Shown here piece after piece: positions 4,877-61,920 of a stretch of DNA of 64,000 bases (positions within the stretch are counted from its first letter, which is position 1; each line of letters starts with the position of its first letter). The notes below the pieces were generated by a model. The model worked only from the letters and a program-made list of their open reading frames with translations. It was not told the origin of the DNA and ran no database searches. The position numbers and the translations under genes were made by a program. Origin of the DNA: Limonium bicolor (taxonomy: Eukaryota > Streptophyta > Magnoliopsida > Caryophyllales > Plumbaginaceae); contig CM041777.1 in the NCBI GenBank assembly GCA_023374045.1, positions 109,829,588 to 109,893,587 on the forward strand, written 5' to 3'.

Positions 4877-5327
4877 TGTAACACCCCCAAACACTGGCCT
4901 AGGAGTTAGGGGTATTACACGCCGCGTATTATTACATAATAACGCAAGGCTCTAAAAGAACGAACTTAAACACATATTCAAATAAGGCCCAAAACAGAAT
5001 ACTTAAACAAAGTATAACCACAATGAAGTCTTAACACCTCAAAAGGTTTTACAGAACCCACCAAACGTATAACAGAAACGGAAGCTAACAAAAGGCCCAA
5101 AGGCTCAAATCCGAATACAAAGTCTCAAAAGTAACTAATAATGAAACATCTAACTCCAGAGCTGCAAAACGACCTTCACTGATCAATCTGCAATGTTAGA
5201 TAGAAATAGGGGAATGAGCACACAACTATGCCCAGTAGATGACAAACCTCATCAACCAGCATGCTCAAAACGTTTAAGAATGTTATCAAATCAGAAGGAG
5301 TCAAGAGAATCCATAAGCATGTCAGAA

Positions 5328-5720
5328 AACAGAAGCAGAAGTCCACACCATAGGGACTAGACAGAACAGAAAGCTGAAAACAGAGTGGGACACTAGCGAT
5401 CACAGCATACAGACAGAACGAGCAACCAGCTCGTGAACAGAACGAGGAAACCTCACTCGTAAACAGAACAGGTGTAGACACCCGTGAACAGAACGGGGAA
5501 CATCACCCGTGAACAGAAGGATCCTACATAGCGCGCTACGAGACAGCGAAACCAGCCATCCAAAGGCTCAGACACAGAGATAACTAGGTCCCAAAACAGA
5601 AGCTTAAATACAGATAAGCATATGTGCACCAAAGGCACCAGAAAGCTCATAGATAGCTTGGAAATCAGAAGGGGAATCCAACCCCGCAAACAGAAGTCAA
5701 AACGGAGCTCAAACGAGCAA
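5328..5720. repeat. String of short stem-loops in the LTR (shown for LTR 1)
   Basis: Successive short inverted repeats are separated by copies of (A)ACAGAA(C/G). Stems in LTR 1: AGTCC 5340-5344 / GGACT 5354-5358; ACGAG 5418 / CTCGT 5434; ACGAG 5442 / CTCGT 5460; GGTGT 5471 / ACACC 5482; ACGGG 5493 / CCCGT 5510; AGGATCCT 5518-5525; TAGCGCGCTA 5529-5538; AGCC 5554 / GGCT 5568; GTGC 5624 / GCAC 5638; AAGCT 5643 / AGCTT 5659; GGGG 5671 / CCCC 5685; GCTC 5707 / GAGC 5718. All six LTRs carry the same string with small changes. The function is unknown. Confidence 0.75.
5603..5610 (-). promoter_or_regulatory. TATA-like box in the gypsy LTR (LTR 1 copy)
   Basis: The minus strand reads TATTTAAG, a plausible TATA variant about 1450 bases into the LTR. 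If used, transcription would start near 5575 and the long palindromes at 5743-6120 would lie just upstream. The motif is kept in the other LTRs (for example 12402-12409). No experimental support exists. Confidence 0.3.
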
Positions 5721-5742
5721 GTTATGGCCAAAACAGTAGCCT

Positions 5743-6120
5743 GTCCGAACTTGTGTCCGGACATCAATGTTCGGACACAAGTCGAGACTCAGAGGCAAAA
5801 TCAGACAGATGTCCGAACTTGTGTCCGGACTTCAAAGTTCGGACACAAGCGAACCTTAAAACAGAAGAAGAGCAGAGGTGTCCGAACATCCAAGTTCGGA
5901 CGGATGTTCGGACATTCTTCGGAAACAGAACGGAGAGTCCGAACTTGTGTCCGGACATCCAATGTTCGGACACAAGTCGAAGCCAAAATCAGAGAATGCA
6001 GAAGCTGTGTCCGAACTTCAAAGCTCGGACGGAAGTTCGGACACAGCGAAGATTTTCAAAAGATTAAGCGCAGAAGGGCATGTCCGAACTTCAAAGCTCG
6101 GACGGAAGTTCGGACATGCC
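5743..6120. repeat. Six long TCCGAAC palindromes in the LTR (LTR 1 copy)
   Basis: Six hairpin-capable inverted repeats share the core TCCGAAC/GTTCGGA. Arms: 5750-5762 with 5769-5781; 5818-5830 with 5837-5849; 5879-5891 with 5902-5914; 5944-5958 with 5962-5976; 6004-6019 with 6032-6047; 6077-6092 with 6105-6120. The third, fifth and sixth have perfect arms of 13, 16 and 16 bases; the others have one mismatch. Equivalent blocks occur in LTRs 2-6 (starting near 12544, 16347, 23154, 29966, 36770). Units 1, 2 and 4 form one subtype and 5 and 6 another, so they probably arose by duplication. Confidence 0.85.
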
Positions 6121-7060
6121 GAAAACCTCAGAAATCAGAAGCGAATTCAAACGAACAGAGGCACAAAAACCAATCCAAATCAACACACACATTTACAAAA
6201 CAACCTTGGGGGTTTAATCCATTGAAAAGGCATTAAACAGACATAAGACACACACCAACACAGGATCAAATCAATTAACTGGTAGAATCCAAACTCCCCA
6301 AGGCTGAACACACGGATCGAATCCGAAAGCCACCTACCTCAAATACAGCAGAGACGAGTCACAATCTGAACAGCAGAGCTCGAATCCAAGCAGATACCCA
6401 AACGCAGACCGGAAAGCAATGCCAACCCTCTAACTGAATACAATTGCAATCCCAAATCAGAAACGCAACCAAAACCCCGAAACTGAAACTGTAACCTGAA
6501 CGGGAATACTATTCTCACCTGAATTCTGACAGTAGGACAACGGATTCGCGGACGACGCCCACAGTAGAAGAGAATTGACTGAGAATGCGAAATCGCCACT
6601 GATTCACAATCAGATTGCAAAGGGGAATTAGAAAGCAAACACTTCAGAAACCATAGAACCGAAGAAGGCTAACTTCTATACCTTAAATTGAACAGGAACG
6701 CAACGAAGAGAATGGGTCCACAGCAGAGGCTCGAATCTTCAAACCGGCACAGCAACTCTTACAGATCGAGAAGGCAAGAAAATGCAGAGAGGAGTTGAGA
6801 GAGAGAGAGCGTCTCAGCAGATGAAACTGATCGGGGAATTAGAAAGTGAGAGCGTGGTGAGGAACGTGGTTAGGGAAGTAATTAAGGATGATTTAATAAG
6901 AAATAATATTAGGCTCTCACCAGAAAATCAATTGAGGAAGGAAAAGACTTCTTCGTCCCCAGCTTAATTAGAATGGACTTCCTTGTCCTGAATAATGAGA
7001 TAAGCCACTTAAAATAAGATGGTGATGAAATAAATTATGACCAAAACTTGGGTTATAACA

Positions 7061-7078
7061 TCACCTCCCCCTTAAAAG
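7061..7078 (-). other. Polypurine tract, copy A
   Basis: The minus strand reads CTTTTAAGGGGGAGGTGA directly before the LTR 1 start, the usual plus-strand primer for gypsy elements. Confidence 0.85.
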
Positions 7079-7105: not shown

Positions 7106-10100
7106 CTACTGCTCGAAAAGGGCGGGAACTTAGAACGCACTTCGCTTTCGACCTCCCAGGTCGCCTCCTCCTCGACTGACCCGACCACTGCACCTTCACC
7201 AAGGGCATGGTCTTGCTCCTAAGCTTACGAACATCTCGGGCTAGAATCCTCGAAGGAACTGCCTCGAACGTGAAGTCCTCCCTCAACTGAAGCGGACTGA
7301 AGTCGATCACATGAGATGGGTCCGGAATATACTTCCTCAGCATAGAAACGTGGAACACACTGTGCACTGCTGCTAAAGACGGAGGCAGAGCCAAACGATA
7401 GGCAACCGGTCCGATCCTCTCTAGGATCTCAAAAGGACCCACAAAACGAGGGCTAAGCTTGCCTCTCTTCCCAAAACGAACGACTCCTCGCACAGGAGAA
7501 ACCTTCAGATACACATGATCGCCCACCTCAAACTCTAGAGGTCGTCTCCTGATCGGCGTAGCTCTTCTGGCGACTCTGAGCCACTAGCAAACGCTCCTGA
7601 TAGACTGAATTTTGCCCACAGCATCCTGAACCAAGTCTGGACCAATCACAGCTCTCTCCTTCAGATCATCCCAACAGATGGGTGATCTGCACCTCCTGCC
7701 ATACAAGGCCTCGAACGGAGCCATCCCGATACTGGTCTGAAACTATTATTATAAGCGAACTCGATCAATGCAACGTGCTGATCCCAGCTGCCCCCAAAGT
7801 CGAGTACACACGCCCTGAGCATGTCCTCCAGGACCTGATTCGTCCTCTCTGTCTGCCCGTCTGACTGAGGATGAAGCTGAACTGAAAGACAACTTCGTCC
7901 CCAAAGCCTGATGCAAACTCTGCCAGAATCTGGACACAAACCTCGGATCTCTGTCAGACACAATCGAAGCGGAACCCCATGCAGACGCACTATCTCATCA
8001 ATGTACAACTGAGCCAAGCGGTGCAAACTGAAAGTCTTCCTGACAGGTAGGAAGTGAGCGCTCTTCGTGAGCCGGTCCACAATGACCCAAACTGCATCAA
8101 AACCCCTCGGAGTCTTAGGCAGTCCCATAACAAAATCCATCCCGACGCTCTCCCACTTCCACTCCGGAACGGGAAGAGGCTGAAGCAAACCAGCTGGTCT
8201 CTGATGCTCAGCTTTGACCTGCTGACAGGTCCGACATCTGGATACAAAGTCAGAAATATCTCTCTTCATGTTGCCCACCAGAATGTCTCTCGAAGATCCC
8301 GGTACATCTTCACCCCTCCTGGGTGTACCGAGTACGGAGCTCCATGAGCCTCCTGCATGATCTCACGCCTCAACGCGTCGTCTGCCGGCACACAAACACG
8401 GCCTCTGAACCTCAGGCAGCCATCCTCTGAAACCCGAACTCGGACTCCTGACCAGCAGACAAACTCTCTCTGATCTTACACAGACTGACATCAAGCTCCT
8501 GACTGGCCTTGATCCGGTCGATCAAGGTAGGCTGAACCTGCAGTGCTGCTAACATCCCAGACCTCTCTGGACGGACAACCCAGATACCCATGCGCTGCAA
8601 CTCCTGAGCAGACCTCTCCACACCGACAAAGCACAAACAGTCCCAGACGGACCCCTCCTACTGAGCGCATCAGCAACCACATTCGCCCTACCCGGATGGT
8701 AGAGGATCTCTAAATCATAATCGTGCAACAACTCCAGCCATCTCCTCTGCCTCAAGTTCAACTCCTTCTGAGTGAACAGATACTTGAGGCTCTTATGGTC
8801 CGTATACACCTTGCACGCTGCCCCATACAAGTAGTGCCTCCAAATCTTCAACGCAAAGACCACCGCAGCCAGCTCCAGATCGTGGGTCGGATAGTTCTTC
8901 TCATATGGCTTCAACTGACGAGAGCCATATGCTACTACCTTCCCATGCTGCATCAGAACACATCCAAGTCCCCTATGGGACGCATCACAGAAAACCTCAA
9001 GACCCTCGGTCCCCTCCGGAAGAGTCAAGATCGGCGCAGTAGTCAACCTCTTCTTCAGCTCCAGAAAACACTGCTCGCAGGCATCGCTCCACTCAAACTT
9101 CACATCCTTCTGCAGCAGACGAGTCAACGGAATCACCAACTTGGAGAAGCCCTCCACAAACTTGCGATAGTAGCCCGCTAGTCCAAGGAAGCTACGAATA
9201 TCCCCAACATTAGTAGGCTGGCCCACTCAGTAATAGCTCGAATCTTCTCCGGGTCCACGGAGATACCATCCTTGGAGACCACATGTCCCAAGAATACCAC
9301 CTGATCTAGCCAGAACTCGCACTTCTTCAGCTTCGCATACAACTCGTTCTCCCTCAGAGTCTGGAGAACGGTCCTCAAATGCTCCTCGTGCTCCTCAGCA
9401 CTCTTGGAATACACCAAGATGTCATCGATGAAAACTACAACGAACTGGTCCAAAAACGGCTTGAAGACTCTGTTCATCATATCCATAAATACTGAAGGCG
9501 CATTCGTCAACCCGAATGGCATCACTAGGAACTCGTAGTGTCCATAACGAGTCCTGAAAGCGGACTTAGGCACGTCGTCTGCCTTAATCCTCAGCTGATG
9601 ATATCCCGACCTCAGATCGATCTTCGAAAACACCTTAGCTCCTGCTAACTGGTCGAACAAGTCGTCTATGCGCGGGAGAGGATACCTATTCTTAATGGTA
9701 ACCTTGTTGAGCTCCCTGTAGTCAATGCACAACTGCATACTACCGTCCTTCTTCTTTACAAATAGCACTGGCGCTCCCCAAGGCGACACACTCGGGCGAA
9801 TGAAGCCCTTATCCAGCAGCTCCTGCAACTGGACCTTCAGCTCCTTGAGCTCAGCAGGCGCCATACGGTATGGGGCCTTCGAAATGGGCTGAGTCTCAGG
9901 TGCGAGCTCGATCGAGAACTCCACCTCTCTGACAGGGGGAAGCCCAGGTACATCATCCTGGAACACATCTGGGAAGTCTCTGACCACTGGAATCTCCTCC
10001 AACTTCGCATCCTTGCGAACCTCAGGGATGTAGCACAGATATCCCTGGCATCCTTTCCTCAGAAAACGGAACGCCTGCATAGCTGATATGACTGGCGGCG

Positions 10101-11664: not shown

Positions 11665-11676
11665 GCTCTGATACCA
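11665..11676 (-). other. Primer binding site, copy A
   Basis: The minus strand reads TGGTATCAGAGC, complementary to the 3' end of initiator tRNA-Met, five bases from LTR 2. Confidence 0.9.
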
Positions 11677-11681
11677 CTAAA

Positions 11682-13872
11682 TGTAACACCCCCAAACACT
11701 GGCCTAGGAGTTAGGGGTATTACACGCCGCGTATTATTACATAATAACGCAAGGCTCTAAAAGAACGAACTTAAACACATATTCAAATAAGGCCCAAAAC
11801 AGAATACTTAACAAAGTATAACCAATGAAGTCTTAACACCTCAAAAGGTTTTACAGAACCCACCAAACGTATAACAGAAACGGAAGCTAACAAAAGGCCC
11901 AAAGGCTCAAATCCGAATACAAAGTCTCAAAAGTAACTAATAATGAAACATCTAACTCCAGAGCTGCAAAACGACCTTCACTGATCAATCTGCAATGTTA
12001 GATAGAAATAGGGGAATGAGCACACAACTATGCCCAGTAGATGACAAACTTCATCAACCAGCATGCTCAAAACATTTAAGAATGTTATCAAATCAGAAGG
12101 AGTCAAGAGAATCCATAAGCATGTCAGAAAACAGAAGCAGAAGTCCACCCATAGGGACTAAACAGAACAGAAGCAGAAAACAGAGTGGGACACTAGCGAT
12201 CACAGCATACAGACAGAACGAGCAACCAGCTCGTGAACAGAACGAGGAAACCTCACTCGTAAACAGAACAGGTGTAGACACCCGTGAACAGAACGGGGAA
12301 CATCACCCGTGAACAGAAGGATCCTACAGCGCGCTACTAGACAGCTAAACCAGCCATCCAAAGGCTCTCAGACAAGAGATAACTAGGTCCCAAAACAGAA
12401 GCTTAAATACAGATAAGCATATGTGCACCAAAGGACCAGAAAGCCAAAAAGCTTAGATAGCTTGGAAATCAGAAGGGGAATCCAACCCGCAAACAGAAGT
12501 CAAAACGGAGCTCAAACGAGCAAGTTATGGCCAAACAGTAGCCTGTCCGAACTTGTGTCCGGACATCAATGTTCGGACACAAGTCGAGACTCAGAAGGCA
12601 AAATCAGACAGATGTCCGAACTTGTGTCCGGACTTCAAAGTTCGGACACAAGTCGAACCTTAAAACAGAAGAAGAGCCAGAGGTGTCCGAACATCCAAGT
12701 TCGGACGGATGTTCGGACGTTCTTCGGAAAACAGAACGTGGAGAGTCCGAACTTGTGTCCGGACATCAGATGTTCGGACACAAGTCGAAGCCAAAATCAG
12801 AGAATGCAGAGAAAGCTGTGTCCGAACTTCAAAGCTCGGACGGAAGGGACACAGCGAAGATTTTCAAAAGATTAAGCGCAGAAGGGCATGTCCGAACTTC
12901 AAAGCTCGGACGGAAGTTCGGACATGCCGAAAACCTCAGAAATCAGAAGCGAATTCAAACGAACAGAGGCACAAAAACCAATCCAAATCAACACACACAT
13001 TTACAAAACAACCTTGGGGGTTTAATCCATTGAAAAGGCATTAAACAGACATAAGACACACACCAACACAGGATCAAATCATCGAATTAACTGGTAGAAT
13101 CCAAACTCCCCAAGGCTGAACACACGGATCGAATCCGAAAGCCACCTACCTCAAATACAGCAGAGACGAGTCACAATCTGAACAGCAGAGCTCGAATCCA
13201 AGCAGATACCCCAAACGCAGACCGGAAAGCAATGCCAACCCTCTAACTGAATACAATTGCAATCCCAAATCAGAAACGCAAAAACCCCGAAACTGAAACT
13301 GTAACCTGAACGGGAATACTATTCTCACCTGAATTCTGACAGTAGGACAACGGATTCGCGGACGACGCCCACAGTAGAAGAGAATTGACTGAGAATGCGA
13401 AATCGCCACTGATTCACAATCAGATTGCAAAGGGGAATTAGAAAGCAAACACTTCAGAAACCATAGAACCGAAGAAGGCTAACTTCTATACCTTAAATTG
13501 AACAGGAACACAACGAGAGAATGGGTCCACAGCAGAGGCTCGAATCTTCAAACCGGCACAGCAACTCTTACAGATCGAGAAGGCAAGAAAAATGCAGAGG
13601 GGAGTTGAGAGAGAGAGAGCGTCTCAGCAGATGAAACTGATCGGGGAATTAGAAAGTGAGAGCGTGGTGAGGAACGTGGTTAGGGAAGTAATTAAGGATG
13701 ATTTAATAAGAAATAATATTAGGCTCTCACCAGAAAATCAATTGAGGAAGGAAAAGACTTCTTCGTCCCAGCAGCTTAATTAGAATGGACTTCCTTGTCC
13801 TGAATAATGAGATAAGCCACTTAAAATAAGATGGTGATGAAATAAATTATGACCAAAACTTGGGTTATAACA
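11682..13872 (-). repeat. LTR 2
   Basis: This 2191-bp LTR lies between copy A (left) and deleted copy B (right). The fifth long palindrome is damaged by a 4-bp loss near 12845, and several short indels mark this copy. Its variable loop (12147-12154) is a shortened form of the LTR 1 loop. Confidence 0.93.
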
Positions 13873-15482: not shown

Positions 15483-17674
15483 TGTAACACCCCCAAACAC
15501 TGGCCTAGGAGTTAGGGGTATTACACGCCGCGTATTATTACATAATAACGCAAGGCTCTAAAAGAACGAACTTAAACACATATTCAAATAAGGCCCAAAA
15601 CAGAATACTTGAACAAAGTATAACCACAATGAAGTCTTAACACCTCAAAAGGTTTTACAGAACCCACCAAACGTATAACAGAAACGGAAGCTAACAAAAG
15701 GCCCAAAGGCTCAAATCCGAATACAAAGTCTCAAAAGTAACTAATAATGAAACATCTAACTCCAGAGCTGCAAAACGACCTTCACTGATCAATCTGCAAT
15801 GTTAGATAGAAATAGGGGAATGAGCACACAACTATGCCCAGTAGATGACAAACTTCATCAACCAGCATGCTCAAAACATTTAAGAATGTTATCAAATCAG
15901 AAGGAGTCAAGAGAATCCATAAACATCAGAAGTCAGAACAGAAGTCCGTTCAAAGGACTAACAGAGCAGAAGCAGACAGAAGAAAACAGAGTGGGACACT
16001 AGCGATCACAGCATACAGACAGAACGAGCAACCAGCTCGTGAACAGAACGAGGAAACCTCACTCGTAAACAGAACAGGTGAACACCCGTGAACAGAACGG
16101 GGAACATCACCCGTGAACAGAAGGATCCTACATAGCGCGCTACGAGACAGCGAAACCAGCCATCCAAAGGCTCAGACACAGAGATAACTAGGTCCCAAAA
16201 CAGAAGCTTAAATACAGATAAGCATATGTGCACCAAAGGCACCAGAAAGCTCATAGATAGCTTGGAAATCAGAAGGGGAATCCAACCCCGCAAACAGAAG
16301 TCAAAACGGAGCTCAAACGAGCAAGTTATGGCCAAAACAGTAGCCTGTCCGAACTTGTGTCCGGACATCAATGTTCGGACACAAGTCGAGACTCAGAAGG
16401 CAAAATCAGACAGATGTCCGAACTTGTGTCCGGACTTCAAAGTTCGGACACAAGTCGAACCTTAAAACAGAAGAAGAGCCAGAGGTGTCCGAACATCCAA
16501 GTTCGGACGGATGTTCGGACTTCTTCGGAAAACAGAACGTGGAGAGTCCGAACTTGTGTCCGGACATCCAATGTTCGGACACAAGTCGAAGCCAAAATCA
16601 GAGAATGCAGAAGCTGTGTCCGAACTTCAAAGCTCGGACGGAAGTTCGGACACAGCGAAGATTTTCAAAAGATTAAGCGCAGAAGGGCATGTCCGAACTT
16701 CAAAGCTCGGACGGAAGTTCGGACATGCCGAAAACCTCAGAAATCAGAAGCGAATTCAAACGAACAGAGGCACAAAAACCAATCCAAATCAACACACACA
16801 TTTACAAAACAACCTTGGGGGTTTAATCCATTGAAAAGGCATTAAACAGACATAAGACACACACCAACACAGGATCAAATCATGAATTAACTGGTAGAAT
16901 CCAAACTCCCCAAGGCTGAACACACGGATCGAATCCGAAAGCCACCTACCTCAAATACAGCAGAGACGAGTCACAATCTGAACAGCAGAGCTCGAATCCA
17001 AGCAGATACCCCAAACGCAGACCGGAAAGCAATGCCAACCCTCTAACTGAATACAATTGCAATCCCAAATCAGAAACGCAACCAAAACCCCGAAACTGAA
17101 ACTGTAACCTGAACGGGAATACTATTCTCACCTGAATTCTGACAGTAGGACAACGGATTCGCGGACGACGCCCACAGTAGAAGAGAATTGACTGAGAATG
17201 CGAAATCGCCACTGATTCACAATCAGATTGCAAAGGGGAATTAGAAAGCAAACACTTCAGAAACCATAGAACCGAAGAAGGCTAACTTCTATACCTTAAA
17301 TTGAACAGGAACGCAACGAAGAGAATGGGTCCACAGCAGAGGCTCGAATCTTCAAACCGGCACAGCAACTCTTACAGATCGAGAAGGCAAGAAAATGCAG
17401 AGAGGGAGTTGAGAGAGAGAGAGCGTCTCAGCAGATGAAACTGATCGGGGAATTAGAAAGTGAGAGCGTGGTGAGGAACGTGGTTAGGGAAGTAATTAAG
17501 GATGATTTAATAAGAAATAATATTAGGCTCTCACCAGAAAATCAATTGAGGAAGGAAAAGACTTCTTCGTCCCCAGCTTAATTAGAATGGACTTCCTTGT
17601 CCTGAATAATGAGATAAGCCACTTAAAATAAGATGGTGATGAAATAAATTATGACCAAAACTTGGGTTATAACA
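15483..17674 (-). repeat. LTR 3
   Basis: This 2192-bp LTR lies between copy B and copy C. Its variable stem-loop at 15943-15959 has loop gttcaaa, unlike LTRs 1, 2 and 6. The GGTGT/ACACC hairpin is reduced to GGTG/CACC near 16076-16088. Confidence 0.93.
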
Positions 17675-17719: not shown

Positions 17720-20700
17720 CTACTGCTCGAAAAGGGCGGGGAACTTAGAACGCACTTCGCTTTCGACCTCCCAGGTCGCCTCCTCCTCGACTGACCCGAC
17801 CACTGCACCTTCACCAAGGGCATGGTCTTGCTCCTAAGCTTACGAACATCTCGGGCTAGAATCCTCGAAGGAACTGCCTCGAACGTGAAGTCCTCCCTCA
17901 ACTGAAGCGGACTGAAGTCGATCACATGAGATGGGTCCGGAATATACTTCCTCAGCATAGAAACGTGGAACACCTGTGCACTGCTGCTAAAGACGGAGGC
18001 AGAGCCAAACGATAGGCAACCGGTCCGATCCTCTCTAGGATCTCAAAAGGACCCACAAAACGAGGGCTAAGCTTGCCTCTCTTCCCAAAACGAACGACTC
18101 CTCGCACAGGAGAAACCTTCAGATACACATGATCGCCCACCTCAAACTCTAGAGGTCGTCTCCTCTGATCGGCGTAGCTCTTCTGGCGACTCTGAGCCAC
18201 TAGCAAACGCTCCCTGATAGACTGAATTTTGCCCACAGCATCCTGAACCAAGTCTGGACCAATCACAGCTCTCTCCTTCAGATCATCCCAACAGATGGGT
18301 GATCTGCACCTCCTGCCATACAAGGCCTCGAACGGAGCCATCCCGATACTGGTCTGAAAACTTATTATAAGCGAACTCGATCAATGCACGTGCTGATCCC
18401 AGCTGCCCCCAAAGTCGAGTACACACGCCCTGAGCATGTCCTCAGGACCTGATTCGTCCTCTCTGTCTGCCCGTCTGACTGAGGATGGTAAGCTGAACTG
18501 AAAGACAACTTCGTCCCCAAAGCCTGATGCAAACTCTGCCAGAATCTGGACACAAACCTCGGATCTCTGTCAGACACAATCGAAGCGGAACCCCATGCAG
18601 ACGCACTATCTCATCAATGTACAACTGGCCAAGCGGTGCAAACTGAAAGTCTTCCTGACAGGTAGGAAGTGAGCGCTCTTCGTGAGCCGGTCCACAATGA
18701 CCCAAACTGCATCAAAACCCCTCGGAGTCTTAGGCAGTCCCATAACAAAATCCATCCCGACGCTCTCCCACTTCCACTCCGGAACGGGAAGAGGCTGAAG
18801 CAAACCAGCTGGTCTCTGATGCTCAGCTTTGACCTGCTGACAGGTCCGACATCTGGATACAAAGTCAGAAATATCTCTCTTCATGTTCCACCAGAATGTC
18901 TCGAAGATCCCGGTACATCTTCACCCCTCCTGGGTGTACCGAGTACGGAGCTCCATGAGCCTCCTGCATGATCTCACGCCTCAACGCGTCGTCTGCCGGC
19001 ACACAAACACGGCCTCTGAACCTCAGGCAGCCATCCTCTGAAACCCGGAACTCGGACTCCTGACCAGCAGACAAACTCTCTCTGATCTTACACAGACTGA
19101 CATCAAGCTCCTGACTGGCCTTGATCCGGTCGATCAAGGTAGGCTGAACCTGCAGTGCTGCTAAATCCCAGACCTCTCTGGACGGACAACCCAGATACCC
19201 ATGCGCTGCAACTCCTGAGCAGACCTCTCCACACCGGACAAAGCACAAACAGTCCCAGACGGACCCCTCCTACTGAGCGCATCAGCAACCACATTCGCCC
19301 TACCCGGATGGTAGAGGATCTCTAATCATAATCGTGCAACAACTCCAGCCATCTCCTCTGCCTCAAGTTCAACTCCTTCTGAGTGAACAGATACTTGAGG
19401 CTCTTATGGTCCGTATACACCTTGCACGCTGCCCCATACAAGTAGTGCCTCCAAATCTTCAACGCAAAGACCACCGCAGCCAGCTCCAGATCGTGGGTCG
19501 GATAGTTCTTCTCATATGGCTTCAACTGACGAGAGCCATATGCTACCTTCCCATGCTGCATCAGAACACATCCAAGTCCCCTATGGGACGCATCACAGAA
19601 AACCTCAAGACCCTCGGTCCCCTCCGGAAGAGTCAAGATCGGCGCAGTAGTCAACCTCTTCTTCAGCTCCAGAAAACACTGCTCGCAGGCATCGCTCCAC
19701 TCAAACTTCACATCCTTCTGCAGCAGACGAGTCAACGGAATCACCAACTTGGAGAAGCCCTCCACAAACTTGCGATAGTAGCCCGCTAGTCCAAGGAAGC
19801 TACGAATATCCCCAACATTAGTAGGTCTGGCCCACTCAGTAATAGCTCGAATCTTCTCCGGGTCCACGGAGATACCATCCTTGGAGACCACATGTCCCAA
19901 GAATACCACCTGATCTAGCCAGAACTCGCACTTCTTCAGCTTCGCATACAACTCGTTCTCCCTCAGAGTCTGGAGAACGGTCCTCAAATGCTCCTCGTGC
20001 TCCTCAGCACTCTTGGAATACACCAAGATGTCATCGATGAAAACTACAACGAACTGGTCCAAAAACGGCTTGAAGACTCTGTTCATCATATCCATAAATA
20101 CTGAAGGCGCATTCGTCAACCGAATGGCATCACTAGGAACTCGTATGTCCATAACGAGTCCTGAAAGCGGACTTAGGCACGTCGTCTGCCTTAATCCTCA
20201 GCTGATGATATCCCGACCTCAGATCGATCTTCGAAAACACCTTAGCTCCTGCTAACTGGTCGAACAAGTCGTCTATGCGCGGGAGAGGATACCTATTCTT
20301 AATGGTAACCTTGTTGAGCTCCCTGTAGTCAATGCACAACCGCATGCTACCGTCCTTCTTCTTTACAAATAGCACTGGCGCTCCCCAAGGCGACACACTC
20401 GGGCGAATGAAGCCCTTATCCAGCAGCTCCTGCAACTGGACCTTCACTCCTTGAGCTCAGCAGGCGCCATACGGTATGGGGCCTTCGAAATGGGCTGAGT
20501 CTCAGGTGCGAGCTCGATCGAGAACTCCACCTCTCTGACAGGGGGAAGCCCAGGTACATCATCCTGGAACACATCTGGGAAGTCTCTGACCACTGGAATC
20601 TCCTCCAACTTCGCATCCTTGCGAACCTCAGGGATGTAGCACAGATATCCCTGGCATCCTTTCCTCAGAAAACGGAACGCCTGCATAGCTGATGACTGGC

Positions 20701-22282: not shown

Positions 22283-24477
22283 TGTAACACCCCCAAACAC
22301 TGGCCTAGGAGTTAGGGGTATTACACGCCGCGTATTATTACATAATAACGCAAGGCTCTAAAAGAACGAACTTAAACACATATTCAAATAAGGCCCAAAA
22401 CAGAATACAACAAAGTATAACCACAATGAAGTCTTAACACCTCAAAAGGTTTTACAGAACCCACCAAACGTATAACAGAAACGGAAGCTAACAAAAGGCC
22501 CAAAGGCTCAAATCCGAATACAAAGTCTCAAAAGTAACTAATAATGAAACATCTAACTCCAGAGCTGCAAAACGACCTTCACTGATCAATCTGCAATGTT
22601 AGATAGAAATAGGGGAATGAGCACACAACTATGCCCAGTAGATGACAAACTTCATCAACCAGCATGCTCAAAACATTTAAGAATGTTATCAAATCAGAAG
22701 GAGTCAAGAGAATCCATAAACATATCAGAATCAGAAACAGAAGTCCAATTAAGGGACTAAACAGAGCAGAAGCAGACAGAAGCAGAGAAAACAGAGTGGG
22801 ACACTAGCGATCACAGCATACAGACAGAACGAGCAACCAGCTCGTGAACAGAACGAGGAAACCTCACTCGTAAACAGAACAGGTGTAAACACCCGTGAAC
22901 AGAACGGGGAACATCACCCGTGAACAGAAGGATCCTACATAGCGCGCTACGAGACAGCGAAACCAGCCATCCAAAGGCTCAGACACAGAGATAACTAGGT
23001 CCCAAAACAGAAGCTTAAATACAGATAAGCATATGTGCACCAAAGGCACCAGAAAGCTCATAGATAGCTTGGAAATCAGAAGGGGAATCCAACCCCGCAA
23101 ACAGAAGTCAAAACGGAGCTCAAACGAGCAAGTTATGGCCAAAACAGTAGCCTGTCCGAACTTGTGTCCGGACATCAATGTTCGGACACAAGTCGAGACT
23201 CAGAAGGCAAAATCAGACAGATGTCCGAACTTGTGTCCGGACTTCAAAGTTCGGACACAAGTCGAACCTTAAAACAGAAGAAGAGCCAGAGGTGTCCGAA
23301 CATCCAAGTTCGGACGGATGTTCGGACTTCTTCGGAAAACAGAACGTGGAGAGTCCGAACTTGTGTCCGGACATCCAATGTTCGGACACAAGTCGAAGCC
23401 AAAATCAGAGAATGCAGAAGCTGTGTCCGAACTTCAAAGCTCGGACGGAAGTTCGGACACAGCGAAGATTTTCAAAAGATTAAGCGCAGAAGGGCATGTC
23501 CGAACTTCAAAGCTCGGACGGAAGTTCGGACATGCCGAAAACCTCAGAAATCAGAAGCGAATTCAAACGAACAGAGGCACAAAAACCAATCCAAATCAAC
23601 ACACACATTTACAAAACAACCTTGGGGGTTTAATCCATTGAAAAGGCATTAAACAGACATAAGACACACACCAACACAGGATCAAATCATCGAATTAACT
23701 GGTAGAATCCAAACTCCCCAAGGCTGAACACACGGATCGAATCCGAAAGCCACCTACCTCAAATACAGCAGAGACGAGTCACAATCTGAACAGCAGAGCT
23801 CGAATCCAAGCAGATACCCCAAACGCAGACCGGAAAGCAATGCCAACCCTCTAACTGAATACAATTGCAATCCCAAATCAGAAACGCAACCAAAACCCCG
23901 AAACTGAAACTGTAACCTGAACGGGAATACTATTCTCACCTGAATTCTGACAGTAGGACAACGGATTCGCGGACGACGCCCACAGTAGAAGAGAATTGAC
24001 TGAGAATGCGAAATCGCCACTGATTCACAATCAGATTGCAAAGGGGAATTAGAAAGCAAACACTTCAGAAACCATAGAACCGAAGAAGGCTAACTTCTAT
24101 ACCTTAAATTGAACAGGAACGCAACGAAGAGAATGGGTCCACAGCAGAGGCTCGAATCTTCAAACCGGCACAGCAACTCTTACAGATCGAGAAGGCAAGA
24201 AAATGCAGAGAGGGAGTTGAGAGAGAGAGAGCGTCTCAGCAGATGAAACTGATCGGGGAATTAGAAAGTGAGAGCGTGGTGAGGAACGTGGTTAGGGAAG
24301 TAATTAAGGATGATTAATAAGAAATAAATTAGGCTCTCACCAGAAAATCAATTGAGGAAGGAAAAGACTTCTTCGTCCCCAGCTTAATTAGAATGGACTT
24401 CCTTGTCCTGAATAATGAGATAAGCCACTTAAAATAAGATGGTGATGAAAAAATTATGACCAAAATTGGGTTATACA
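22283..24477 (-). repeat. LTR 4
   Basis: This 2195-bp LTR lies between copies C and D. Several 1-bp losses cluster at its right end (24314-24477), including within TTATAACA at the terminus. Its variable stem-loop at 22742-22758 has loop aattaag. Confidence 0.93.
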
Positions 24478-29097: not shown

Positions 29098-31291
29098 TGT
29101 AACACCCCCAAACACTGGCCTAGGAGTTAGGGGTATTACACGCCGCGTATTATTACATAATAACGCAAGGCTCTAAAAGAACGAACTTAAACACATATTC
29201 AAATAAGGCCCAAAACAGAATACTTAACAAAGTATAACCACAATGAAGTCTTAACACCTCAAAAGGTTTTACAGAACCCACCAAACGTATAACAGAAACG
29301 GAAGCTAACAAAAGGCCCAAAGGCTCAAATCCGAATACAAAGTCTCAAAAGTAACTAATAATGAAACATCTAACTCCAGAGCTGCAAAACGACCTTCACT
29401 GATCAATCTGCAATGTTAGATAGAAATAGGGGAATGAGCACACAACTATGCCCAGTAGATGACAAACTTCATCAACCAGCATGCTCAAAACATTTAAGAA
29501 TGTTATCAAATCAGAAGGAGTCAAGAGAATCCATAAACATATCAGAATCAGAAGCAGAAGTCCCGTTAAAGGACTAAACAGAGCAGAAGCAGACAGAAGC
29601 AGAAAACAGAGTGGGACACTAGCGATCACAGCATACAGACAGAACAACAACAGCTCGTGAACAGAACGAGGAAACCTCACTCGTAAACAGAACAGGTGTA
29701 ACACCCGTGAACAGAACGGGGAACATCACCCGTGAACAGAAGGATCCTACATAGCGCGCTACGAGACAGCGAAACCAGCCATCCAAAGGCTCAGACACAG
29801 AGATAACTAGGTCCCAAAACAGAAGCTTAAATACAGATAAGCATATGTGCACCAAAGGCACCAGAAAGCTCATAGATAGCTTGGAAATCAGAAGGGGAAT
29901 CCAACCCCGCAAACAGAAGTCAAAACGGAGCTCAAACGAGCAAGTTATGGCCAAAACAGTAGCCTGTCCGAACTTGTGTCCGGACATCAATGTTCGGACA
30001 CAAGTCGAGACTCAGAAGGCAAAATCAGACAGATGTCCGAACTTGTGTCCGGACTCAAAGTTCGGACACAAGTCGAACCTTAAAACAGAAGAAGAGCAGA
30101 GGTGTCCGAACATCCAAGTTCGGACGGATGTTCGGACATCTTCGGAAAACAGAACGTGGAGAGTCCGAACTTGTGTCCGGACATCCAATGTTCGGACACA
30201 AGTCGAAGCCAAAATCAGAGAATGCAGAAGCTGTGTCCGAACTTCAAAGCTCGGACGGAAGTTCGGACACAGCGAAGATTTTCAAAAGATTAAGCGCAGA
30301 AGGGCATGTCCGAACTTCAAAGCTCGGACGGAAGTTCGGACATGCCGAAAACCTCAGAAATCAGAAGCGAATTCAAACGAACAGAGGCACAAAAACCAAT
30401 CCAAATCAACACACACATTTACAAAACAACCTTGGGGGTTTAATCCATTGAAAAGGCATTAAACAGACATAAGACACACACCAACACAGGATCAAATCAT
30501 TGAATTAACTGGTAGAATCCAAACTCCCCAAGGCTGAACACACGGATCGAATCCGAAAGCCACCTACCTCAAATACAGCAGAGACGAGTCACAATCTGAA
30601 CAGCAGAGCTCGAATCCAAGCAGATACCCCAAACGCAGACCGGAAAGCAATGCCAACCCTCTAACTGAATACAATTGCAATCCCAAATCAGAAACGCAAC
30701 CAAAACCCCGAAACTGAAACTGTAACCTGAACGGGAATACTATTCTCACCTGAATTCTGACAGTAGGACAACGGATTCGCGGACGACGCCCACAGTAGAA
30801 GAGAATTGACTGAGAATGCGAAATCGCCACTGATTCACAATCAGATTGCAAAGGGGAATTAGAAAGCAAACACTTCAGAAACCATAGAACCGAAGAAGGC
30901 TAACTTCTATACCTTAAATTGAACAGGAACGCAACGAAGAGAATGGGTCCACAGCAGAGGCTCGAATCTTCAAACCGGCACAGCAACTCTTACAGATCGA
31001 GAAGGCAAGAAAATGCAGAGAGGGAGTTGAGAGAGAGAGAGCGTCTCAGCAGATGAAACTGATCGGGGAATTAGAAAGTGAGAGCGTGGTGAGGAACGTG
31101 GTTAGGGAAGTAATTAAGGATGATTTAATAAGAATAATATTAGGCTCTCACCAGAAAATCAATTGAGGAAGGAAAAGACTTCTTCGTCCCCAGCTTAATT
31201 AGAATGGACTTCCTTGTCCTGAATAATGAGATAAGCCACTTAAAATAAGATGGTGATGAAATAAATTATGACCAAAACTTGGGTTATAACA
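29098..31291 (-). repeat. LTR 5
   Basis: This 2194-bp LTR lies between copies D and E. Its variable stem-loop at 29569-29585 has loop cgttaaa. One arm of the first ACGAG/CTCGT hairpin is lost near 29644. Confidence 0.93.
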
Positions 31292-31336: not shown

Positions 31337-34300
31337 CTACTGCTCGAAAAGGGCGGGGAACTTAGAACGCACTTCGCTTTCGACCTCCCAGGTCGCCTCC
31401 TCCTCGACTGACCCGACCACTGCACCTTCACCAAGGGCATGGTCTTGCTCCTAAGCTTACGAACATCTCGGGCTAGAATCCTCGAAGGAACTGCCTCGAA
31501 CGTGAAGTCCTCCCTCAACTGAAGCGGACTGAAGTCGATCACATGAGATGGGTCCGGAATATACTTCCTCAGCATAGAAACGTGGAACACACTGTGCACT
31601 GCTGCTAAAGACGGAGGCAGAGCCAAACGATAGGCAACCGGTCCGATCCTCTCTAGGATCTCAAAAGGACCCACAAAACGAGGGCTAAGCTTGCCTCTCT
31701 TCCCAAAACGAACGACTCCTCGCACAGGAGAAACCTTCAGATACACATGATCGCCCACCTCAAACTCTAGAGGTCGTCTCCTCTGATCGGCGTAGCTCTT
31801 CTGGCGACTCTGAGCCACTAGCAAGCGCTCCCTGATAGACTGAATTTGCCCACAGCATCCTGAACCAAGTCTGGACCAATCACAGCTCTCTCCTTCAGAT
31901 CATCCCAACAGATGGGTGATCTGCACCTCCTGCCATACAAGGCCTCGAACGGAGCCATCCCGATACTGGTCTGAAAGCTGTTATTATAGCGAACTCGATC
32001 AATGCACGTGCTGATCCCAGCTGCCCCCAAAGTCGAGTACACACGCCCTGAGCATGTCCTCAGGACCTGATTCGTCCTCTCTGTCTGCCCGTCTGACTGA
32101 GGATGGTAAGCTGAACTGAAAGACAACTTCGTCCCCAAAGCCTGATGCAAACTCTGCCAGAATCTGGACACAAACCTCGGATCTCTGTCAGACACAATCG
32201 AAGCCGGAACCCCATGCAGACGCACATCTCATCATGTACAACTGGCCAAGCGGTGCAAACTGAAAGTCTTCCTGACAGGTAGGAAGTGAGCGCTCTTCGT
32301 GAGCCGGTCCACAATGACCCAAACTGCATCAAAACCCCTCGGAGTCTTAGGCAGTCCCATAACAAATCCATCCGACGCTCTCCCACTTCCACTCCGGAAC
32401 GGGAAGAGGCTGAAGCAAACCAGCTGGTCTCTGATGCTCAGCTTTGACCTGCTGACAGGTCCGACATCTGGATACAAAGTCAGAAATATCTCTCTTCATG
32501 TTGCCCACCAGAATGTCTCTCGAAGATCCCGGTACATCTTCACCCCTCCTGGGTGTACCGAGTACGGAGCTCCATGAGCCTCCTGCATGATCTCACGCCT
32601 CAACGCGTCGTCTGCCGGCACACAAACACGGCCTCTGAACCTCAGGCAGCCATCCTCTGAAACCCGAACTCGGACTCCTGACCAGCAGACAAACTCTCTC
32701 TGATCTTACACAGACTGACATCAAGCTCCTGACTGGCCTTGATCCGGTCGATCAAGGTAGGCTGAACCTGCAGTGCTGCTAACATCCCAGACCTCTCTGG
32801 ACGGACAACCCAGATACCCATGCGCTGCAACTCCTGAGCAGACCTCTCCACACCGACAAAGCACAAACAGTCCCAGACGGACCCCTCCTACTGAGCGCAT
32901 CAGCAACCACATTCGCCCTACCCGGATGGTAGAGGATCTCTAAATCATAATCGTGCAACTCCAGCCATCCCTCCTCAAGTTCAACTCCTTCTGAGTGAAC
33001 AGATACTTGAGGCTCTTATGGTCCGTATACACCTTGCACGCTGCCCCATACAAGTAGTGCCTCCAAATCTTCAACGCAAAGACCACCGCAGCCAGCTCCA
33101 GATCGTGGGTCGGATAGTTCTTCTCATATGGCTTCAACTGACGAGAGCCATATGCTACTACCTTCCCATGCTGCATCAGAACACATCCAAGTCCCCTATG
33201 GGACGCATCACAGAAAACCTCAAGACCCTCGGTCCCCTCCGGAAGAGTCAAGATCGGCGCAGTAGTCAACCTCTTCTTCAGCTCCAGAAAACACTGCTCG
33301 CAGGCATCGCTCCACTCAAACTTCACATCCTTCTGCAGCAGACGAGTCAACGGAATCACCAACTTGGAGAAGCCCTCCACAAACTTGCGATAGTAGCCCG
33401 CTAGTCCAAGGAAGCTACGAATATCCCCAACATTAGTAGGTCTGGCCCACTCAGTAATAGCTCGAATCTTCTCCGGGTCCACGGAGATACCATCCTTGGA
33501 GACCACATGTCCCAAGAATACCACCTGATCTAGCCAGAACTCGCACTTCTTCAGCTTCGCATACAACTCGTTCTCCCTCAGAGTCTGGAGAACGGTCCTC
33601 AAATGCTCCTCGTGCTCCTCAGCACTCTTGGAATACACCAAGATGTCATCGATGAAAACTACAACGAACTGGTCCAAAAACGGCTTGAAGACTCTGTTCA
33701 TCATATCCATAAATACTGAAGGCGCATTCGTCAGACCGAATGGCATCACTAGGAACTCGTAATGTCCATAACGAGTCCTGAAAGCGGACTTAGGCACGTC
33801 GTCTGCCTTAATCCTCAGCTGATGATATCCCGACCTCAGATCGATCTTCGAAAACACCTTAGCTCCTGCTAACTGGTCGAACAAGTCGTCTATGCGCGGG
33901 AGGGGATACCTATTCTTAATGGTAACCTTGTTGAGCTCCCTGTAGTCAATGCACAACCGCATGCTACCGTCCTTCTTCTTTACAAATAGCACTGGCGCTC
34001 CCCAAGGCGACACACTCGGGCGAATGAAGCCCTTATCCAGCAGCTCCTGCAACTGGACCTTCAGCTCCTTGAGCTCAGCAGGCGCCATACGGTATGGGGC
34101 CTTCGAAATGGGCTGAGTCTCAGGTGCGAGCTCGATCGAGAACTCCACCTCTCTGACAGGGGGAAGCCCAGGTACATCATCCTGGAACACATCTGGGAAG
34201 TCTCTGACCACTGGAATCTCCTCCAACTTCGCATCCTTGCGAACCTCAGGGATGTAGCACAGATATCCCTGGCATCCTTTCCTCAGAAAACGGAACGCCT

Positions 34301-35778
34301 GCATAGCTGATATGACTGGCGGCGAGCACGGGAGTCCATTCCCTGCTACAATCAAACGGGGCTGGCCCGGCTCCTCGAAAGTGACTCTCGAAGCAGCACA
34401 ATCAATGTGGGCATGGTGCGCAGCAAGCCAATCCATGCCCAGGATCACATCAAAAGAAGTCATCTCCATCGGGATGAGGTTAGCACACAGAGTCCTATCT
34501 CTGACTAACACAGGACTATCTTTGCAAACAGAATTCAACAGCATAGAAGAGTCCCTAACTAATGGACTATGCACACATAACTCAACACCCAGAGGCACAA
34601 CAGGCAAACCGAGCTCACCCACCAACTCAGCAGAAATAAAAGAGTGGGTGGCTCCAGAGTCAAACAAACAGAAAACAGAACGAGATGACAGCTGGAGAAT
34701 ACCTGTGACAACTCTGTCAGTCGATCGGTCCCTCTCTCCAGCCATCGCGTACACTCTGGCCTGGCCCTGGGGCTTCTTCTGCTCAGCCCGGTCTCGATCT
34801 CTAGACCCAGATGCAGACCTCCAGCTCCACCTCCAGAGCTACCTCTGCTCCTCTCAGCCTGAGGGCAATCAGCAATCCTATGCCCATGGATCCACACTTG
34901 AAGCAGGCCCCGACTTCCTGTAGCAGTCCTGACCTCTGAAACTTGCCACAGACCTGGCACTTCGGAGCAGCTGACGAAGACGAACCCCTCTATCTCGTGA
35001 ACGGTCCCCAGAGCGGTCTCCAGTAGACTGCTTCTTCTGAGAAGCAGACTGATCCCTCCTATCACTGTCATCGGACCTCTGCTTCCTCTTCTGGTCCTTC
35101 CCTCCAGACTGGCGACCTCTCAAGTCAGCCTCTACCAACAGGGCGACATCAGCTACGTCCCTGAAGGTCTTGTGACGCAGCGGCGTCACAGCAGATCGGA
35201 TATCCGGCCTCAGCCACTCTCAAACTTCCTGGCCTTCCTATGCTCGTCAGGCTCAGGTGCAAACTTAGATAGGCTGATAAACTTGCGGACGTACTCCTCA
35301 ACGCTCATGTCCCGACCCTGGCGTAGTCGGTTATACTCCAGGATGCGCTGATCCTTGTAGACGTCGGGGTAGAACTGCTTGTTGAACTCCCCAATGAACT
35401 GCTCCCACGTCCATGTGTGGAACTTCCCCATCACTGACCTCCACCACTCCTTGGCTTCGGCCTTGAACAGAAAGGTCGAAGTCGACCTTCTGCTCCTCCT
35501 CAGAGCCCATCACTCGAAGCAAATCCTCCACCTCTGACAACCAGTGGCTGGCCTCCTGGGGGTCTCCTGCCCCATCGAACGACGGCTTCAGCTTCATGAA
35601 TTCCTGAAGCGCCTTCACGTTCCTCCCTCCAGCATCTGCCCCAGCCGGGCCTGCTCCGCCAGCTGGTCCTCCTCCAGCTGGACCGCCCCCTGCAGCCATG
35701 GTCTGCATGAGCTGCGTCATAAACTGCTGAACAGCATCAGCACATTCCCTGGAGGGTTATTCTCTCTCTTGGCGGCAT
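31337..35778 (-). pseudogene. gag-pol polyprotein, copy E (longest open pol frame)
   Basis: Copy E keeps a 604-codon open frame, 34754-32940, covering protease, RT and RNase H. In that frame the protease Asp is residue 32 (DSGATHSFI), RT catalytic Asp residues are 305 ([10 protein letters not shown]), 369 and 370 (FIDDILVY), and RNase H acidic residues are 516, 553 and 578. Gag is broken into 35720-35331, 35434-35210 and 35189-34878. Integrase pieces are 32866-32642, 32477-32232 and 32225-31818, and the tail is 31824-31303. The pol frame ends early through two short losses at about 32960-32975. It is the best copy for clade assignment. The surrounding indels still make the whole polyprotein untranslatable as given. 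Confidence 0.92.
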
Positions 35779-35891: not shown

Positions 35892-38089
35892 TGTAACACC
35901 CCCAAACACTGGCCTAGGAGTTAGGGGTATTACACGCCGCGTATTATTACATAATAACGCAAGGCTCTAAAAGAACGAACTTAAACACATATTCAAATAA
36001 GGCCCAAAACAGAATACTTGAACAAAGTATAACCACAATGAAGTCTTAACACCTCAAAAGGTTTTACAGAACCCACCAAACGTATAACAGAAACGGAAGC
36101 TAACAAAAGGCCCAAAGGCTCAAATCCGAATACAAAGTCTCAAAAGTAACTAATAATGAAACATCTAACTCCAGAGCTGCAAAACGACCTTCACTGATCA
36201 ATCTGCAATGTTAGATAGAAATAGGGGAATGAGCACACAACTATGCCCAGTAGATGACAAACTTCATCAACCAGCATGCTCAAAACATTTAAGAATGTTA
36301 TCAAATCAGAAGGAGTCAAGAGAATCCATAAACATCAGAAGTCAGAAACAGAAGTCCACACCATAGGGACTAGACAAACAGAAGCAGCAGAAGAAGAAAA
36401 CAGAGTGGGACACTAGCGATCACAGCATACAGACAGAACGAGCAACCAGCTCGTGAACAGAACGAGGAAACCTCACTCGTAAACAGAACAGGTGTAACAC
36501 CCGTGAACAGAACGGGGAACATCACCCGTGAACAGAAGGATCCTACATAGCGCGCTACGAGACAGCGAAACCAGCCATCCAAAGGCTCAGACACAGAGAT
36601 AACTAGGTCCCAAAACAGAAGCTTAAATACAGATAAGCATATGTGCACCAAAGGCACCAGAAAGCTCATAGATAGCTTGGAAATCAGAAGGGGAATCCAA
36701 CCCCGCAAACAGAAGTCAAAACGGAGCTCAAACGAGCAAGTTATGGCCAAAACAGTAGCCTGTCCGAACTTGTGTCCGGACATCAATGTTCGGACACAAG
36801 TCGAGACTCAGTAGGCAAAATCAGACAGATGTCCGAACTTGTGTCCGGACTTCAAAGTTCGGACACAAGTCGAACCTTAAAACAGAAGAAGAGCCAGAGG
36901 TGTCCGAACATCCAAGTTCGGACGGATGTTCGGACATCTTCGGAAAACAGAACGCGGAGAGTCCGAACTTGTGTCCGGACATCCAATGTTCGGACACAAG
37001 TCGAAGCCAAAATCAGAGAATGCAGAAGCTGTGTCCGAACTTCAAAGCTCGGACGGAAGTTCGGACACAGCGAAGATTTTCAAAAGATTAAGCGCAGAAG
37101 GGCATGTCCGAACTTCAAAGCTCGGACGGAAGTTCGGACATGCCGAAAACCTCAGAAATCAGAAGCGAATTCAAACGAACAGAGGCACAAAAACCAATCC
37201 AAATCAACACACACATTTACAAAACAACCTTGGGGGTTTAATCCATTGAAAAGGCATTAAACAGACATAAGACACACACCAACACAGGATCAAATCATCG
37301 AATTAACTGGTAGAATCCAAACTCCCCAAGGCTGAACACACGGATCGAATCCGAAAGCCACCTACCTCAAATACAGCAGAGACGAGTCACAATCTGAACA
37401 GCAGAGCTCGAATCCAAGCAGATACCCCAAACGCAGACCGGAAAGCAATGCCAACCCTCTAACTGAATACAATTGCAATCCCAAATCAGAAACGCAACCA
37501 AAACCCCGAAACTGAAACTGTAACCTGAACGGGAATACTATTCTCACCTGAATTCTGACAGTAGGACAACGGATTCGCGGACGACGCCCACAGTAGAAGA
37601 GAATTGACTGAGAATGCGAAATCGCCACTGATTCACAATCAGATTGCAAAGGGGAATTAGAAAGCAAACACTTCAGAAACCATAGAACCGAAGAAGGCTA
37701 ACTTCTATACCTTAAATTGAACAGGAACGCAACGAAGAGAATGGGTCCACAGCAGAGGCTCGAATCTTCAAACCGGCACAGCAACTCTTACAGATCGAGA
37801 AGGCAAGAAAATGCAGAGAGGGAGTTGAGAGAGAGAGAGCGTCTCAGCAGATGAAACTGATCGGGGAATTAGAAAGTGAGAGCGTGGTGAGGAACGTGGT
37901 TAGGGAAGTAATTAAGGATGATTTAATAAGAAATAATATTAGGCTCTCACCAGAAAATCAATTGAGGAAGGAAAAGACTTCTTCGTCCCCAGCTTAATTA
38001 GAATGGACTTCCTTGTCCTGAATAATGAGATAAGCCACTTAAAATAAGATGGTGATGAAATAAATTATGACCAAAACTTGGGTATAACA
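35892..38089 (-). repeat. LTR 6 (outermost 5' LTR of the array)
   Basis: This 2198-bp LTR is the sense-upstream end of the array. No purine tract follows it at 38090; instead unrelated DNA with a 49-bp direct repeat starts there. Its variable loop (36358-36366) matches LTR 1 almost exactly, while the bases just before it match LTR 3. Confidence 0.93.
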
Positions 38090-61352: not shown

Positions 61353-61840
61353 TAAGAATCCCTTGAGGATTTAAGATATTACAGTTAACCCCCTTGTAGT
61401 TATCATAATTACTGGTAACCACCTTGAGGTTAAGGTATTTTGACAACGAGCCTCCGAACTATAACTCTATTATCAGGAAGTTAACTACATGTTAACCTAT
61501 CAACTTAATTATATTAATACGGTCATGTTGGACAAAAAACACTAATTAATCTGCATTGTTATTTTCTAAAAATGTCAACCCTTCCTTGAAAATGCATCTA
61601 AAGTGGGATGAAGGAGAGTTAGACAATGTTGATTAAGCAGTTTATTGTCCAGTCTGGCATTATTAATGTGATTGAGCTGATAGATTAACACATAGTTAAC
61701 TTTTTGATCACAGAGTTATAGTTCGAGGGCTCGTAGTCAAAGATACCTTAACCTTGAGGTGGTTACCAATAATTATGATAAACACGAGGGGGTTAACTGT
61801 AATATCCCAAATCCTCATGGGGGTTCCGAGTAATTTACTC
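61353..61840. mobile_element. Mutator-type MITE, copy 1, inserted in a TA tract
   Basis: Sequence matches the MITE at 63364-63867 across its length. Right tip GAGTAATTTACTC at 61828-61840; the left tip is shortened and merges with a TATATATA run. TA repeats on both sides may hide the target duplication. Confidence 0.75.
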
Positions 61841-61867
61841 TATATATATATATATATATATATATAG

Positions 61868-61917: not shown

Positions 61918-61920
<3 letters not shown>

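Follow-up and report, generated by a model that had tools for sequence, protein, structure and literature searches.

A string of short hairpins in the long terminal repeats (LTRs) of a Ty3/gypsy retrotransposon of Limonium bicolor is best explained, with a probability that we put at roughly 45%, as the small-hairpin half of a structured LTR zone whose pairing is maintained during replication and which acts as hairpins of the leader RNA. The zone holds more hairpins than expected by chance, hairpins with different stems occupy coinciding positions in two subfamilies of the element, and compensatory changes are in excess when the hairpins are pooled. It appears to be a case of structure retained and sequence replaced inside an LTR, most clearly for its larger hairpins, and folding as such may be of importance to the element.

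Results

A tandem retrotransposon array with a hairpin zone in each LTR

The window, as we call the whole stretch of 64,000 nucleotides that was analysed, contains a tandem array (4877-38089) of a single retrotransposon arranged as LTR-internal-LTR, in which five internal regions lie between six LTRs of 2.18-2.20 kb each and one internal region is shortened, giving a spacing of 3.8 kb versus 6.8 kb for the others. No target site duplication was seen, as the 5 bases outside the array's two ends differ. The minus strand is the sense of the element, as judged from its open frames, its Pfam matches and a primer binding site that we take to be that for tRNA-iMet (Table 1). Its domain order of gag, then protease-reverse transcriptase (RT)-RNase H, then integrase, together with the TG..CA LTRs and the primer binding site, places it in Ty3/gypsy, within which the family is probably a Tekay/Del-type chromovirus. 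The frame-broken open reading frame at the integrase end matched the SH3-like domain PF24626 with no Pfam chromodomain match, and the tail after the integrase presumably resembles a chromodomain. No relative of the RT protein was found among viral contigs, the U5-primer binding site and hairpin-string patterns had no match in viral contigs, and an Rfam search of the 64-kb window returned 0 matches above the gathering score.

Table 1. Positions in the window of the array features discussed in the text.
Feature	Position	Strand	Remarks
LTR 1	4877..7060	-	U5 end 4877, U3 start 7060, from repeat boundaries and ends; last LTR in the sense direction, without an adjoining primer binding site
Splice-acceptor-like TTGCAG/ATTGATCAG	5179..5193	-	putative; sense-downstream of the hairpin zone; exact in 26/45 LTRs
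Small hairpin string	5328..5720	-	13 stems, each 4-6 bp long; connectors read ACAGAA on the plus strand and TTCTGT in sense
Six larger hairpins	5749..6120	-	11-16 bp; built from GTCCGAAC / GTTCGGAC / GTCCGGAC
Splice-donor-like GAG/GTAGGTGG	6330..6340	-	putative; sense-upstream of the hairpin zone; exact in 42/45 LTRs
Primer binding site region TTTAGTGGTATCAGAGC beside LTR 2	11665..11681	-	likewise beside LTRs 3-6, absent beside LTR 1
Hairpin zone, LTR 2	12119..12928	-	three small stems broken; one large arm minus three bases
Hairpin zone, LTR 3	15923..16729	-	all 13 named small stems present
Hairpin zone, LTR 4	22720..23536	-	all 13 named small stems present
Hairpin zone, LTR 5	29537..30346	-	stem ACGAGC broken
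Protease, RT and RNase H of one unit	32940..34838	-	PF08284, PF00078, PF17917
Hairpin zone, LTR 6	36332..37144	-	all 13 named small stems present

Several other features of the window were recorded. The U5 end at 4877-4919 forms an imperfect palindrome of 43 bases, TGTAACACCCC..GGGGTATTACA, which is the same across the six LTRs, and the RT region shows a stem excess (z 3.7-5.4) at 9201-9600, 19801-20200, 26601-27000 and 33401-33800. Outside the array, 39650-39806 consists of 15/30/45-base repeats such as CCATACCCACCACCA, which would be proline-rich if coding, GC content reaches 0.53 at 40-42 kb, and 61360-63870 holds a cluster of units of about 480 bases, each partly palindromic, which lie in direct and inverted orientation and are 77-90% alike.

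The original prediction was of about twelve perfect stem-loops at 5328-5720, joined throughout by an ACAGAA connector and found at the same place in all six LTRs. Counting non-overlapping, perfect stems of at least 4 bp with loops of 2-12 against 200 dinucleotide shuffles revealed 13 stems versus 4.78 ± 1.51 in shuffled sequence (0/200 reaching 13), so that the predicted number is borne out and stem density lies above that of the shuffled controls. The excess held for stems of at least 5 bp (7 versus 1.31 ± 1.06, 0/200 reaching 7) and was absent for those of at least 6 bp, of which there is one, a number reached by 44/200 shuffles. Stem numbers in the flanks (4923-5327, 6151-6550 and 6551-7066) were at chance level by the same comparison. 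That no shuffle reached the observed density speaks against chance pairing in an A/C-skewed CAGAA repeat that is conserved only through conservation of R-U5, an explanation that we regard as distinctly improbable and that is taken up again with the covariation results. ACAGAA occurs nine times in the string, versus a shuffle mean of 0.96, but borders some of the stems and not all. All 13 named stems are found in LTRs 1, 3, 4 and 6, 12 in LTR 5 and 10 in LTR 2 (the second ACGAG stem there was searched loosely, and AAGCT/AGCTT is retained with an altered loop), in agreement with the claim that the string recurs. In 149 background segments of 400 bases outside the array, stem z averaged 0.5 with a maximum of 3.9; by the same measure, the six LTR hairpin zones peak at 5.3-6.3. 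One hairpin of the string, AGTCC/GGACT (5340-5358, and correspondingly in LTRs 2-6), has a constant stem and five loop forms among the six LTRs of the window, its loop being nearly invariant in 20 other close copies.

The hairpin zone runs beyond the flagged string to 6120, where the larger hairpins lie. Compared with shuffles, this half folds with z of -13.4 and -12.9 on the two strands; its excess is in paired bases, the number of stems of at least 4 bp being 10 versus 9.6 expected. The small string, for which folding of both strands had been proposed as a check, gave z of -4.60 as plus-strand RNA and -4.59 as minus-strand DNA, but only a mild -1.72 as sense (minus-strand) RNA, with 5/100 shuffles as good. 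Across ten LTRs of the family, the string ranged from 0.0 to -2.5 as sense RNA and from -1.1 to -3.7 as antisense.

Two further explanations bear on these features. Dicer substrates need longer stems than 4-6 bp, and only the longer hairpins might matter to a role through small RNAs, as a silencing trigger or decoy acting for host or element. Such a role we consider highly improbable: LTR hairpins in maize correlate with small RNAs and methylation, but in the available part of that survey they are concentrated in Copia elements, with no obvious peak in Ty3/RLG elements (PMC10760457). A single symmetric, CpG-rich motif, TCCG..CGGA, recurs in the large hairpins, and CpG observed/expected is 1.23, which would suit a palindromic cis-regulatory promoter array acting at the DNA level, as proposed for Sirevirus LTRs, whose dyad-symmetric boxes would bind factors or shape chromatin and whose folding as RNA would be incidental. 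We hold this to be unlikely, since the small string has a repeated connector and differing stems, the opposite of what an array of binding sites would show.

Hairpin positions and covariation in two subfamilies

A pattern consisting of the U5 end plus primer binding site matched the genome 34,118 + 33,725 times, and 1,321 + 1,345 times exactly when the spacer of the window's family was included (more than 2,600 junctions). From these roughly 2,666 spacer-specific places, the first 47 in the list were taken, less an early one and two adjoining an included place (44 in all), and LTR 6 of the window was added. The resulting 45 LTRs, all from the same genome, fall into two sister subfamilies, A1 with 24 sequences, to which the window's LTRs belong, and A2 with 21; members compared between the two are 57-62% identical across about 2 kb aligned. 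A set of 20 added close copies, 26 sequences when aligned, was too similar to inform on covariation.

Hairpins were called separately in A1 and A2, and centres within 3 alignment columns were counted as matching, with 106 offsets as the null. This revealed that 11/19 centres match (null mean 2.1, maximum 5; 0/106), including 6/13 for small hairpins (null mean 1.4, maximum 4). Five of the six matched small stems differ in letters between A1 and A2 (GTGC/GCAC versus GCAT/ATGC, GCTTA/TAAGC versus TTGCTT/AAGCAA, TAGC/GCTA versus TGGT/ACCA, ACAGGTG/CACCTGT versus GGGTT/AACCC, and ACGAGC/GCTCGT versus GGGTC/GACCC); the sixth, AGCC/GGCT, is the same in both and has a different loop. Between single sequences the correspondence is looser, only 10/26 hairpins having a partner within 6 columns and 16 having none when LTR 6 is compared with L039, a sequence in which AGTCC/GGACT is matched by GGAAC/GTTCC. 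Replacement of the stem letters at matching places would hardly be tolerable for sequence-specific factors, which argues against a promoter array, and the coincidence of positions despite replaced stems likewise argues against chance pairing.

Base pairs of A1 hairpins with both letters changed in A2 were Watson-Crick in 14/19 cases versus 15/71 in slid controls, and in the reverse direction 11/21 versus 22/86. On the tree, same-branch compensatory changes numbered 20 in A1 hairpins (null mean 3.1, maximum 8; 0/100) and 14 in A2 hairpins (null mean 3.3, maximum 8; 0/100), averaging 17.8 and 12.2, respectively, over five reconstructions. In one reconstruction, large hairpins account for 12 of the 20 A1 compensations and small hairpins for 8. 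Ten of the 20 map to branches with a single leaf, where changes from before and after insertion are mixed, and a T-A to G-C change seen in three leaves may represent a single event counted three times. As a further control, we used chance stems with loops of 20-300 bases from the same alignment. Small A1 hairpins exceeded these far stems (7.2 versus 2.4, maximum 5.0; double changes kept in 8/13 versus 237/682), and small A2 hairpins showed no excess over them (4.6 versus 2.7, maximum 6.6; 7/17 versus 268/645). An all-pairs G-test in the manner of R-scape, with APC, a tree null and all column pairs, gave 0 significant pairs; much of the change falls on the A1/A2 split, which leaves this test little power.

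The proposed covariation check therefore came out divided, with an excess in the helix-level tests and none in the all-pairs test, and the signal suggests strong covariation for the large hairpins and a moderate one for the small. The original description of different stems with kept pairing accordingly applies strongly to the adjoining large hairpins and moderately to the flagged string itself. Chance pairing would be in keeping with the negative all-pairs test and with the small A2 hairpins that do not exceed far stems, but is at odds with the positive tree test of same-branch compensation. Slower change of stems on internal branches was rejected as proof of selection, since far chance stems show slowing too, almost to the full extent in A1 and to a lesser one in A2 (far stems versus hairpins, 0.26 versus 0.21 in A1 and 0.68 versus 0.29 in A2); it is largely an artefact of calling hairpins from the commonest letters.

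Stem changes before and after insertion

Among 20 LTR mates examined, 12 formed clear 5'/3' pairs, 0-9% apart, six had no match and two were closer to another copy. As both LTRs are alike at insertion, differences within a pair arose after it. Non-CpG differences in the 12 pairs affected 54/2738 stem and 94/5453 unpaired positions, CpG differences 26/463 and 34/583, and 0/2 double changes were compensatory. Stems are not spared after insertion in these pairs, and the making or repair of palindromes in resident chromosomal DNA is thus unsupported. Between copies, with the same hairpins scored, non-CpG change was 7.9% in stems versus 12.8% in loops and 14.0% elsewhere in A1, and 7.7%, 13.3% and 9.2%, respectively, in A2, rates that carry a hairpin-calling bias. 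Pairing therefore seems to belong to the replicating life of the element, through selection or through an event at reverse transcription, with some doubt left by the compensations on single-leaf branches. Of the two causes offered originally, selection on structure and a copying process that makes palindromes, the former fits best when placed in the replicating lineage, and the latter loses its footing in resident DNA.

Some process at reverse transcription could possibly also keep pairing. In its strongest form, the hairpins would be a functionless by-product, made and corrected as palindromes by fold-back template switching, and quasipalindrome mutation by template switch is documented in E. 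coli in the available text of PMC7202029. The 10/20 compensations on single-leaf branches and the one small hairpin with five loops on a constant stem point in this direction, but template switching would not favour one zone of the LTR and would not alone account for the coinciding positions of unlike palindromes in the two subfamilies, and we consider it rather unlikely.

Hairpin zones in other families

The U5-primer binding site pattern also matched bacterial assemblies, in six contigs resembling plant contamination. From these came a family B (L002, L003, L005 and the more distant L006), whose LTR has no similarity to that of the window except a 25-base GA/CT run and whose mid-LTR zone has many hairpins, joined by another connector and including stems like TGCATA/TATGCA. 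Its stem density reaches z of 4.1 (L002) and 3.2 (L006), near the ordinary maximum of 3.9. Double changes were kept in 7/267 predicted pairs between L003 and L006, five of them within two hairpins, and covarying hairpins include TACCT/AGGTA versus TACCC/GGGTA, with its outer stem, and TGGCTG/CAGCCA versus TAGCTG/CAGCTA. Stem changes were 7/177 versus 14/92 in loops, or about 8% versus 15% even with the stem changes doubled, hairpins called in one old copy undercounting stem changes by up to half. In other families, with counts of S 280/3273, L 306/2091 and o 2810/18362, the lowering in stems was lost after correction for this undercount, and covariation is not claimed for them, the 19/37 kept doubles versus 36/142 slid counting both directions. 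The window's genome also yielded 16 LTR stretches with different spacers, of which six (L042, L045, L046, L047, L049 and L054) have a segment above z 3.9, and comparison of such stretches gave no demonstration of covariation. Two further plant-like LTRs, L001 and L004, look like contamination in Solirubrobacter and Geminicoccus genomes and carry a 158-codon open frame downstream of the primer binding site, with MASPSSVNMIPDLNESL near its start.

Strand and setting of the zone

Selection on the sense RNA should tolerate G-U pairs over A-C mismatches. The window's family, A, shows no preference for G-U (in sense) over A-C mismatches, and 14/15 mismatches inside the longer stems of seven LTRs were A-C in sense, all 15 coming from paralogous hairpins that possibly pair otherwise too. 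Wobble asymmetry was rejected as a strand test, being equal in family A and 6 to 1 on few counts in family B (6 G-U versus 1 A-C, both directions of one sequence pair). Wobbles without strand preference are what a promoter array or template switching would leave.

Identity of A1 copies to LTR 6 is low over the first 950 sense bases and mostly high beyond, in the hairpin zone and U5; in 50-base blocks, the hairpin zone is mostly 0.76-0.95 identical and the upstream part 0.43-0.78. Within the otherwise poorly kept stretch before the zone, the donor-like GAG/GTAGGTGG is conserved, and the acceptor-like TTGCAG/ATTGATCAG is within one change in 40/45 LTRs, its AG being retained in 43 of the 44 located. 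In LTR 6, a distance of 1.16 kb that includes the hairpin zone and 23 upstream ATGs separates the two putative sites, and U content of the putative intron is no higher than in its flanks. A search of the LTRs for a TATA box found none common to A1 and A2; TATATTA occurs near the LTR start in 12/21 A2 LTRs and in no A1 LTR in that bin. Sirevirus palindromic boxes sit upstream of a TATA box (PMC2829016, in the text available), and the start site of transcription leaves room for a similar promoter arrangement here, as the leader location of our zone is presumed; against it, no TATA common to both subfamilies follows the zone.

Discussion

We infer that the zone is transcribed, that the RNA is the molecule that pairs, and every function set out here. 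The zone would be transcribed as part of the R-U5 leader of the element, possibly inside a facultative leader intron, and its many hairpins together would serve recognition or packaging of the genome RNA, its dimerisation or its protection, for instance against splicing, much as a retroviral 5' leader does, with stem letters and loops free to change as long as pairing persists. A more specific proposal, which we regard as doubtful, is that of a psi-like module of interchangeable hairpins in a plant Ty3/gypsy element, lying inside a facultative leader intron and marking unspliced RNA for packaging; selection would then act on the presence and place of hairpins and hardly on their letters, and stems would turn over completely between subfamilies. 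With a compact, conserved hairpin zone between splice-like signals and more than 2,600 U5-primer site junctions in one genome, the question is testable.

The original statement that no LTR module like this had been described was too strong, since Sirevirus (Ty1/copia) LTRs are known to carry arrays of palindromic boxes (PMC2829016, Bousios 2010; Bousios 2016, cited in PMC10760457; each available in part). The likeness is that of a row of palindromes inside a plant LTR. In the Sirevirus arrays, as far as the available text goes, the palindrome is itself the repeated motif, with a CGG-CCG core, upstream of TATA, whereas here the connector repeats and the small stems differ. A repeated CGG-CCG box upstream of a conserved TATA was not found in our LTRs, and only the large hairpins resemble such a box. 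Sireviruses are moreover Ty1/copia elements, and in the window element RT precedes integrase, which is not the Ty1/copia order.

Caulimovirid leaders fold as one big stem, whereas here there are many small ones. The zone nevertheless resembles the caulimovirid leader with its ribosome shunt (PMC5902531, available in part) in that it would belong to a plant retroelement leader that is long, structured and supplied with upstream ATGs. BARE, a Ty1/copia element, has separate RNA pools and a facultative intron, and its unspliced RNA is packaged (PMC3735527, in the part available); its intron is 104 nt long and the spliced RNA encodes Gag alone, in contrast to the putative 1.16-kb intron within the LTR considered here.

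Retroviral 5' leaders with their psi and dimer-initiation (DIS) elements are likewise strings of stem-loops in which structure counts over sequence (PMC11449360, PMC8096270, PMC7599994 and PMC7291142, each available in part), and the longer R regions of some retroviruses are conserved owing to stem-loops (PMC3601003, likewise). In retroviral dimer-initiation palindromes, the letters change and palindromy persists (TAGCGCGCTA, TGGTATACCA), according to the same partial texts. Structure is kept over sequence in the LTR zone as well, except that small A2 hairpins are not above control. A location downstream of a splice donor, donor-like by sequence in our case, may be a further shared trait; unlike the retroviral leader, the zone is contained within the LTR, with about 0.45 kb between its near end and the primer binding site. 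A literature search of limited coverage, in sources seen in part, found no Ty3/gypsy hairpin string with covariation, which is no proof of absence. Taken together, the zone differs from the known arrays in its superfamily, in a repeated connector that joins unrelated stems, and in covariation.
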